Shown here in pieces: positions 58,789 to 61,257 of a stretch of 64,000 nt of DNA (positions are counted from its first letter, which is position 1; the number at the start of each line of letters is the position of its first letter). Position numbers and translations under genes: made by a program. The notes under the pieces were generated by a model, which was given only the letters and a program-made list of their open reading frames with translations, made no database searches and was not told where the DNA came from. The stretch is from Akkermansia muciniphila (GTDB lineage Bacteria; Verrucomicrobiota; Verrucomicrobiia; Verrucomicrobiales; Akkermansiaceae), in NCBI RefSeq assembly GCF_002884975.1, contig NZ_PJKB01000001.1, forward strand, positions 434,001-498,000, in the 5' to 3' direction.

Positions 58789-61257
58789 ATGGCAAAACAA
58801 GTATTACAGCGGCTCAGTTTTACGGCCGGGGAGCTGACCCCGTGGCTGGCCGGGCGCGCCGACCTGGACCCTGTGTCCCGCGGCGCCTCCCGGCTGATGA
58901 ATTTCCTGGTCAGCCCCTTCGGCGGCCTCCGGCGCAGGCCCGGAACGCGCCTGGTTGCCCGCGCGGGATGCGCGGAAGGGGCCGTGAGGCTGGTTTCCTT
59001 CAAATACTCCACGGGCGTGCAGTTCATGCTGGAAGCGGGGCGCGGCTACATCCGGTATTTCAAGGACGGCTCCCCCCTGCGGGATGCGGACGGCGGCGTG
59101 CTGGAAACCTCCACTCCCTGGAAGACGGACGAACAGGTTAGGAACCTCCGGTTGCAGCAGCTGAATGATGTGATTTACTGCGTGGAGCCGTCTACCCCGC
59201 CCATGACGCTTTCCCGCCATGCGGACGATGACTGGCGGCTGGAGGCGCTGGAGTTTTCCGGCATGCCTTATGAAAGCTCCCTGTTCAATGCCGTGAGGCT
59301 GGAATGCCGGATGGTGAGGGAAGGGAGTGCCGCCAGATTGCTGGCCAGTGCGGACGAAGACGTTTTCACGCCGGAAATGGAGGGCAGGGAGTTCCTCCGC
59401 ATTACCCGGAAATACGGGGAATCCGTAGTGGAGGGGACCCAGATGCCCTTTTACCATCTGACGAACCTGGACCGGGACCTTTACAAGGGGGAGACTTTCT
59501 CCATGGACCGGGAGGACGGCTGGCGGCAGGCTTATACGTGCATCCGGGATTTCAGCAGGAAGACCGACTACCAGCCCGGCGTGAATCGCCCGGAGAGGTA
59601 CACGGCATTTTTTGAAAAGGGCTCCGATGCCAGCGCGCGTGTTTACGTCAGCGGCGCGTGGACGCTGGAAACCACGGGAACCTGGGATGCGGAGTGGGAA
59701 GTGTGCCGGGGGTATCCGGACGGCTCCAATTACCTCCCCGCCCAGCCCTCCCTGGTCTGGCACTCCGTGAAGAGCTTCCAGCAGAAGGACGGCTTCCGGA
59801 ACAATTTTTCCCTGAGCGGCAATGAAGAGGAATTATCCTATTATAAAATCCGCCTGATGGCGTACAGGAACGGGGCCTCTGCGGGAACGCCCGTGCTCCG
59901 GGCGGCGGCAGGCTCCTTTGACCATGAAATGGTGGTGGAGGAATACGTTTCCCCCCGCAGCGCGTATCTCACGAACGCCCTTCACCTGTCCTACTACGCG
60001 CTGGGGGATTGTGAGACCAATGACTGGTCCTTCGGCGCGTTCGGCGTCCGGAACGGGTATCCGTGCACGGTGGAATTCCATCAGGGGCGGCTGTGGTTCG
60101 GCGGAACTCCCGGGCAGCCCCAGACGCTGTGGGCCAGCCGGGTGGATGATTTTTCCGCGTTTACTCCGGGTGTTCCGGCGGATTCCGCCATGATTCTGAC
60201 GATGGCGGCCTCCCAGCAGAACCGCATCTCCTGGATTGCCTCCCTGCGGGGGCTGATGATCGGCACCAGCGAAGGGGAGTGGCGGCTGTCCGCCTCCAAC
60301 TCGGAAGGGCTGAGCGCGGCCAATGCCGAATTCCAGCGCCATTCCGGGGTGGGTTCCGCCTCCCTGGACGCCCTGACGGTGGAAAACAGCCTCCTCTTTG
60401 TCCAGCAGGGAAGCATGATGGTGCGGGAACTGTTTTATTCCCTGGAGGCTGACGGCTACCAGACGCGGGACGTCAGCCTGCTGTCCGGCCATCTGCTGAA
60501 GGCGGGGATTGTGGACTGGACGGTGCAGAGAAGCACGGCGTTCCATGTCTGGTGCGTGCTGGGGGACGGCTCCGCCGTGTGCATGACGCTGAACAGGGAG
60601 CAGAATGTGGCGGCGTGGCACGCCCACCGCCTGGAACATGGCCGCATCCTGTCCGTGGCGGCTTTGCGCGGCTCCCGTGATACTCCGGATGAGGACGTGT
60701 GGTTTGCCGTAGCGCGCGGGGAGGGGGAACGGGCCTGCATCACCATAGAGCGCCTGGCGGACGGCCATGCCTGCCTGGACGCCTGCACGGAAGCCGTGGT
60801 GCGGGGGGAGGCTTTGTCCGGGCTGGAGCATTTGGCGGGATGCGGCGCCCTCCTGCTGGACGGGGACGGCGCATGTATGCCCATTAGCATTGACGGGGAG
60901 GGGAATGCCGCCTGCCCCGGCAGGAGGGACGGGGAAGCCGTGTCTGTAGGGCTGGCCGCCCCGGCGGAAGTGAGGACGATGCCCCTGGAAACGCTTGAGA
61001 CGCTGGGCAGGTTTAAAAAGCAGCTCGGCGCGAGGGCGCTGCTTCACGAAAGCACGCTGAAGTTCCGGTACGGAACGGGCCACCCGGATGCGTGGAGGGA
61101 TTTCCAGCCCGGCAGGTACGGCGTGGCGGAGCCTTATTCCGGCTACGTGCGCATGATCCACAACTACGGCATGGATGAGCAGTCCCGCTTTGCCCTCCGG
61201 GTGGAGACGCCGGACCCGTTCAATCTGCTGGCCCTGGTGCTGGATGTGGAATTATAG
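58789..61257 (+). CDS. Isolated phage-tail-like structural protein (822 aa)
   Basis: The protein begins with a pattern typical of a podovirus-type tail protein: LSFTAGELTPWLAGRADLDP and MNFLVSPFGGLRRRPGTRLV. Beta-rich repeats follow, including VEFHQGRLWFGGTPGQPQTL and ISWIASLRGLMIGTSEGEW. I choose ATG 58789, which has GGGGAGG close before it; an upstream ATG at 58774 is less convincing. No terminase, portal, capsid or integrase gene is adjacent. The composition matches the chromosome, and the frame is intact over 2.5 kb, which argues for selection rather than decay. A domesticated tail component or a component of a scattered gene-transfer or contractile device is possible. Confidence 0.75.
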   Translation: MAKQVLQRLSFTAGELTPWLAGRADLDPVSRGASRLMNFLVSPFGGLRRRPGTRLVARAGCAEGAVRLVSFKYSTGVQFMLEAGRGYIRYFKDGSPLRDADGGVLETSTPWKTDEQVRNLRLQQLNDVIYCVEPSTPPMTLSRHADDDWRLEALEFSGMPYESSLFNAVRLECRMVREGSAARLLASADEDVFTPEMEGREFLRITRKYGESVVEGTQMPFYHLTNLDRDLYKGETFSMDREDGWRQAYTCIRDFSRKTDYQPGVNRPERYTAFFEKGSDASARVYVSGAWTLETTGTWDAEWEVCRGYPDGSNYLPAQPSLVWHSVKSFQQKDGFRNNFSLSGNEEELSYYKIRLMAYRNGASAGTPVLRAAAGSFDHEMVVEEYVSPRSAYLTNALHLSYYALGDCETNDWSFGAFGVRNGYPCTVEFHQGRLWFGGTPGQPQTLWASRVDDFSAFTPGVPADSAMILTMAASQQNRISWIASLRGLMIGTSEGEWRLSASNSEGLSAANAEFQRHSGVGSASLDALTVENSLLFVQQGSMMVRELFYSLEADGYQTRDVSLLSGHLLKAGIVDWTVQRSTAFHVWCVLGDGSAVCMTLNREQNVAAWHAHRLEHGRILSVAALRGSRDTPDEDVWFAVARGEGERACITIERLADGHACLDACTEAVVRGEALSGLEHLAGCGALLLDGDGACMPISIDGEGNAACPGRRDGEAVSVGLAAPAEVRTMPLETLETLGRFKKQLGARALLHESTLKFRYGTGHPDAWRDFQPGRYGVAEPYSGYVRMIHNYGMDEQSRFALRVETPDPFNLLALVLDVEL

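Follow-up and report, generated by a model that had tools for sequence, protein, structure and literature searches.

A solitary tail nozzle gene in Akkermansia as a probable component of a dispersed, podovirus-derived gene transfer agent

The window analysed here is a 64,000-nucleotide stretch of contig C1 from a member of the Akkermansia muciniphila group (genome G000; 2.90 Mb in 7 contigs, including C1, C2 and C3), and towards its end it contains an ATG-started, unbroken frame of 822 codons, preceded by a Shine-Dalgarno-like motif (Table 1). An earlier note on this DNA had described the gene as intact, chromosomal in composition and of a podovirus tail type, and each part of that description holds. 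The frame is uninterrupted, its GC3 of 0.80 falls within the range of the neighbouring genes (0.73-0.83), and a profile search matches residues 1-821 of the protein to PHROG 376 (‘tail protein’, E 1.2e-129), while a second match is to the ‘Tail Nozzle’ of Cobetia phage Carin1 (PDB 8ck1_A, E 6.4e-62). A full-length profile match combined with a match to a solved nozzle places the protein in PHROG 376, among the podovirus nozzles. A Pfam search with the protein returned no match, and a structure prediction, built from 6 similar sequences, reached a pLDDT of 31. Just 5' of the gene a block containing TTGAC is identical across 12 close genomes, and is possibly a promoter element.

According to Pfam, the genes flanking the nozzle encode two PF10672/PUA (SAM) methyltransferases (for which the earlier label of rRNA methyltransferase is plausible), a KhpA/B-type KH protein, as had been claimed, an RmlD-type reductase and a GlcN-6-P isomerase. 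Nozzles of 75-96% identity occur in five named records, assigned to Akkermansia muciniphila or Akkermansia/Akkermansiaceae, and in every one of them the same two genes, one for a methyltransferase and one for the KH protein, bracket the nozzle, with an extra 1.7-2.3 kb separating methyltransferase from nozzle in two. Across 16 genomes there are at least 7 different nozzle neighbourhoods, made up of housekeeping genes that differ by clade. The one exception is G022, where the nozzle adjoins a standalone terminase. Its other neighbour there (530 aa) is 63% identical to a gene abutting the terminase in G024, and the pair that is split by the nozzle in G022 is contiguous in G024. Because the counterpart of the 530-aa gene directly abuts the terminase in G024, gene order suggests that the nozzle was probably inserted beside the G022 terminase as a one-gene move. 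The earlier note had named two findings that would speak against its reading, adjacent phage genes in other strains (marks of a recent prophage remnant) and frameshifts in close relatives; the neighbours in relatives are housekeeping genes, the terminase in G022 is likewise of the non-prophage kind, and none of 47 extracted nozzle copies carries a frameshift.

Outside its prophages, G000 holds four loci with phage-particle genes (loci A to D, Table 1). The search for separate head and tail loci that the earlier note had proposed thus yielded capsid, portal, adaptor and terminase loci, which co-occur with the nozzle. Nozzle and capsid lie 661 kb apart on one contig, and terminase and portal are found on two others. 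The portal belongs to PF12236 (E 1.8e-140), the adaptor to phrog_394 (E 1.4e-42) and the scaffold/protease to phrog_3742 and 458. The portal matches the Carin1 portal (8ck0) and the adaptor the Carin1 connector (8ck1_E), meaning that portal, adaptor and nozzle all match the Carin1 portal and tail structures (8ck0/8ck1) despite sitting on two contigs. Carin1, although it possesses these homologous proteins, exists as a free phage (40.5 kb), whereas the Akkermansia homologues lie on different chromosomal contigs.

Table 1 Positions of the scattered phage-particle genes of G000 and of other features mentioned in the text
Feature	Position	Strand	Family or remark
Conserved block with TTGAC	window:58740-58760
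Shine-Dalgarno-like GGGGAGG	window:58779..58785	+	Spotted by eye, directly before the nozzle ATG
Locus A: tail nozzle gene, 822 aa	window:58789..61257 = G000:C1:492789-495257	+	PHROG 376, PDB 8ck1_A; only member of the scattered set within the window
Locus B: lone major capsid gene	G000:C1:1153756-1154676		PF19821, E 7.5e-100
Locus C: genes of 423 and 1728 codons before large terminase	G000:C2:223905-231980		Terminase phrog_2, phrog_2472
Locus D: scaffold, 93-aa gene, portal, 71-aa gene; in the opposite direction adaptor, winged-helix 97-aa gene, 85-aa gene	G000:C3:73881-78425
Winged-helix 97-aa gene	L094:11879-12172		Weak PF03965 match
CRISPR-Cas-like genes adjoining portal module, G000	L094:13329-19901
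CRISPR-Cas-like genes adjoining portal module, G004	L096:12737-19382
Terminase and 530-aa gene split by nozzle, G022	L039:6970-12890
Terminase and 530-aa gene contiguous, G024	L068:7262-10557
Clustered podovirus-type prophage, G000	G000:C1 ~151-190 kb (L048-L050)		Own nozzle at ~160.7-162.8 kb
Open frame of 3738 aa	L050:5842-17058 (G000:C1 ~177-188 kb)		Inside the clustered prophage region
Degenerate prophage, G000	L126:6835-10494 (G000:C1 ~558.8-562.5 kb)
Podovirus-type prophage, G060	G060:C1 ~2.45-2.465 Mb
Viral-collection contig with related terminase	L356:1-9383		Terminase at contig end

The composition of these loci is largely maintained in other genomes. The 423-aa and 1728-aa genes, whose products found no family match in profile searches, occur at 17 of 17 terminase loci examined in other genomes and at none of 23 prophage-type loci. 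At portal loci, the scaffold and the 93-aa gene are present in 16 of 16 cases and the 71-aa gene in 10 of 16; on the divergent side, the adaptor and the 85-aa gene are found in 15 of 16 and the winged-helix gene in 12 of 16. None of the 23 prophage-type loci gave a match to the 97-aa, 85-aa or 71-aa gene. The winged-helix protein, confined in this comparison to the scattered set, is a candidate switch for particle production. Among genes of the scattered set we recognised no receptor-binding tail fibre, holin or endolysin; a single visual pass over conserved upstream blocks revealed no promoter motif common to the loci, and inspection by eye of the genes listed near the standalone loci, most of them unannotated, revealed no recombinase. 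The capsid gene, judged by eye, neighbours ribosomal-protein genes in some genomes and a chaperone or ATP-synthase region in others. In G000 and G004 the portal module is directly adjoined by CRISPR-Cas-like genes, which by eye we take to be cas2, cas1, cas4 and cas3.

For the genus as a whole, standalone copies were recognised by bit-score cut-offs set at gaps in the match lists (nozzle at least 330, capsid at least 410, terminase at least 690, portal at least 570). Second capsid copies (G000, G060, G061, G070) and partial terminases (G012, a 94-aa frame; G028, a 300-aa frame) were excluded from the counts, while the portal of G021 (370-aa frame) and the nozzles of G018 (750-aa frame) and G033 (694-aa frame) were included; these two nozzles, the shortest, are incomplete and lie on short contigs. 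One internal stop was listed in several capsids and in the G005 portal, and two of the capsids so listed, those of G011 and G079, were extracted as full-length frames. On this basis the conservation check suggested in the earlier note finds the nozzle in 58 of 76 Akkermansia genomes, alongside capsid in 56, terminase in 57 and portal in 58. All four hallmark genes occur together in 50 genomes, three in 9, two in 1 and none in 16; among the 55 genomes that are at least 90% complete with at most 5% contamination, the corresponding numbers are 40, 4, 0 and 11. For the 10 of 60 carriers that are without one or two of the genes, draft assembly is the sole explanation we offer. Co-occurrence is strong (Fisher p 6e-11 to 2e-12, kinship ignored), and it involves genes that are far apart: in six single-contig genomes the closest two of the four lie 82-348 kb from one another, and all four together span 882-2712 kb, far larger than a phage head holds, which bears on whether one particle could package them all.

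Absence was placed on a host tree of one marker, GatA, for 30 chosen genomes (all 16 lacking the genes and 14 of the 60 carrying them). Four changes are needed, at least three of which are forced by well-supported branches. The lineages concerned are a clade of 13 genomes, G097, G013 and G028. Carriers are sister to the first two of these (G034 to the clade, G015 to G097); the placement of G013 and G028 is less sure. From this pattern the whole set appears to have been lost together about four times, and the joint disappearance of genes hundreds of kilobases apart argues for a single common function.

Selection was estimated with our own Nei-Gojobori script in 12 close genomes. The nozzle has a median dN/dS of 0.126 (maximum 0.216; 64 of 66 pairs usable), so that the dN/dS check proposed in the earlier note points to purifying selection. 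Median values are 0.033 for the capsid, 0.044 for the portal and 0.066 for the terminase, making the nozzle the fastest evolving of the four, with 0.015 for the KH gene as a control. For a second control, the methyltransferase compared with G000, 4 of 11 comparisons hit a paralogue (0.82-0.91) and were dropped, and the remaining seven gave 0.037-0.10. All extracted frames are open (47 nozzle, 38 capsid, 36 terminase and 37 portal). Across 36 terminase sequences, the stretches KARQLGIST, LHVSELA and WDLGLSDHTA, and one ending in SHTADAAR, are invariant or nearly so; they presumably represent the motifs of the ATPase and the nuclease, although the match to the Pfam nuclease domain is below cut-off.

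For the four genes, protein distances are mutually correlated (rho 0.87-0.95; 0 of 999 permutations as high), also after removal of 11 near relatives (rho 0.71-0.91), and each correlates with distances of GatA (rho 0.81-0.85; 0-1 of 4999 permutations as high; 13-14 genomes, one host marker). Prophage terminases, in contrast, do not track GatA (rho 0.14, 6 genomes). In the terminase tree, non-prophage copies form one clade (99/97) apart from 18 prophage copies, and in a quick portal tree they fall on one side of a weakly supported branch (49). Three prophage capsids, those of G060, G061 and the G000 degenerate prophage, are nested among non-prophage ones in the capsid tree, showing that exchange of this gene with prophages has occurred. 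At the level of sequence, the scattered genes are intact, under selection, co-inherited with the host, and jointly present or absent.

The genus has many podovirus-type prophages, and those of G000 and G060 possess the same terminase, portal, capsid and nozzle families as the scattered set. They differ in that their genes are clustered and in that their terminases are 39-52% identical to the non-prophage terminase of G000. The clustered prophage of G000 has a nozzle of its own, and its region also contains an open frame of 3738 aa. The degenerate prophage of the same genome retains a frame of 374 aa that looks recombinase-like by eye, along with an adaptor homologue and a nozzle truncated to 122 aa, and contrasts with the intact scattered set; its capsid is 75% identical to the lone capsid, and the G060 prophage capsid 70%. 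Lone genes and short modules at separate loci, tracking GatA, are unlike either of the G000 prophages. That the nozzle is a recent prophage remnant is rejected in view of open frames, dN/dS, co-occurrence, the losses on the GatA tree and the housekeeping neighbours.

A single-query search of viral contigs produced no close relative of the nozzle or the terminase. In alignments, the top-scoring phage nozzle is 29% identical over residues 10-791, with the best segments of the lower-scoring listed matches reaching at most 41%, and phage terminases are at most 51% identical to the scattered type, apart from one contig at 64%. On that contig (L356) the terminase is 96% identical to that of G011, and the remainder belongs to an unrelated phage, with terminase, portal and protease genes recognised by eye; its scattered-type terminase appears to be host DNA bordering a prophage. 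Among the viral contigs searched, no free phage was found to have a nozzle or terminase of this type in its own right. Capsid relatives in viral contigs reach 40% identity among the matches listed, and outside the genus terminases reach at most 46% (239 genomes drawn from the order).

A terminase with conserved stretches, together with portal, scaffold, capsid, adaptor and nozzle, amounts to the parts of a head-filling machine with a short tail. Six features have been proposed to define gene transfer agents (GTAs), known examples of which are domesticated phage gene sets, often scattered (PMC9662315), and three of the six are found in the Akkermansia set: its proteins are of tailed-phage ancestry (nozzle, capsid, portal, adaptor, scaffold and terminase families), it is fully endogenized at multiple loci (four, among housekeeping genes), and it is inherited vertically with the host, as judged from the correlations with one host marker given above. 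The possibility of a dispersed particle or GTA raised in the earlier note is supported at this level by the co-occurring capsid, portal, terminase and adaptor loci. We consider it probable that the nozzle is part of a vertically inherited, dispersed GTA of podovirus origin that was domesticated by Akkermansia and occupies at least four chromosomal loci. With somewhat less assurance, we favour the fuller proposal that Akkermansia makes a GTA derived from an independent podovirus domestication in Verrucomicrobiota, its genome split into loci of one or a few genes that move as units, kept by selection across most of the genus and lost whole about four times. Alphaproteobacterial GTAs carry a low-carbon protein signature; it is absent here, as nozzle, portal and capsid are slightly richer in carbon than their prophage homologues and the terminase is equal.

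Under the GTA proposal, the loci would be switched on together in a fraction of cells, and a head would be assembled from portal, scaffold and capsid. Host DNA would be packed into this head by the terminase, for which the 85-aa protein may act as small subunit, and adaptor and nozzle would close it as a short tail. Particles would then be released by lysis and inject their DNA into relatives, helped by the two large proteins of the terminase locus, which we would guess to be ejection proteins.

Several alternative hypotheses may be considered. The genes could encode a domesticated podovirus-like particle put to another use, such as killing relatives or delivering proteins, for which DNA packaging would be incidental. 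All head, portal and nozzle genes are retained, packaged DNA is only inferred here, and the 423-aa and 1728-aa genes could encode cargo; nevertheless, a terminase with conserved motifs, a dN/dS of 0.066 and a history of loss with the rest would be superfluous for DNA-free particles, and we regard this explanation as unlikely. Considerably less probable, in our view, is that the genes are kept against related Akkermansia phages, with their products poisoning or mis-assembling incoming virions. The frequency of related prophages in the genus and the closeness of some of their capsids to the non-prophage ones (those of G060 and of the degenerate prophage in G000) are consistent with such interference, which would, however, have no need of a complete head-tail pathway and is exceeded by unlinked, co-inherited parts and conserved terminase motifs.

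It is very improbable that the genes, nozzle included, are functionless leftovers of an old prophage: a degenerate prophage does exist in G000, and prophages and the scattered set have one capsid family in common, but values of dN/dS far below 1, open frames in every extracted copy of the four genes and the genus-wide all-or-none pattern speak against decay. We give the least credence to a lone surface adhesin or enzyme of tail-protein origin. The nozzle is indeed solitary at its locus and the fastest evolving of the four genes, yet its profile match is full-length and it is lost together with capsid, portal and terminase. The adhesin, also suggested in the earlier note, is not favoured because it would leave the co-inheritance of these genes unexplained.

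The RcGTA of Rhodobacter capsulatus likewise consists of domesticated phage genes over several loci (five) and is vertically inherited, although its transfer of DNA is proven (PMC9662315) whereas the Akkermansia set is known from sequence. Also comparable is the FpGTA of Faecalibacterium, a podovirus-like, GTA-like element of a gut bacterium, located at separate loci, widespread in its genus and similarly equipped with terminase, portal, scaffold and capsid; its genes make up two operons (10.5 and 5.5 kb), and its particles, with ~9 kb of DNA, are proven (Nat Commun 2026, PMC12946183). The Akkermansia set differs in occupying four loci, of which two consist of one gene, in belonging to another phylum and in being known from its genes. 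We regard it as a candidate GTA of independent origin whose genes are more finely dispersed than those of FpGTA. A search of the literature for gene transfer agents in Akkermansia or Verrucomicrobia found no such element (most subscription journals and preprints lay outside its scope), and the main text of the cited GTA paper mentions neither Akkermansia nor Verrucomicrobia. RcGTA also differs in ancestry, tracing back to long-tailed phages.

Lone phage genes annotated as remnants can belong to a scattered machine, and searching for co-inherited lone phage genes may uncover GTAs that cluster-based finders miss. The GTA reading is directly testable in culturable Akkermansia and, if true, would mean that this much-studied gut mucin degrader has a built-in route for the transfer of chromosomal DNA, the first GTA for its phylum within the literature searched.
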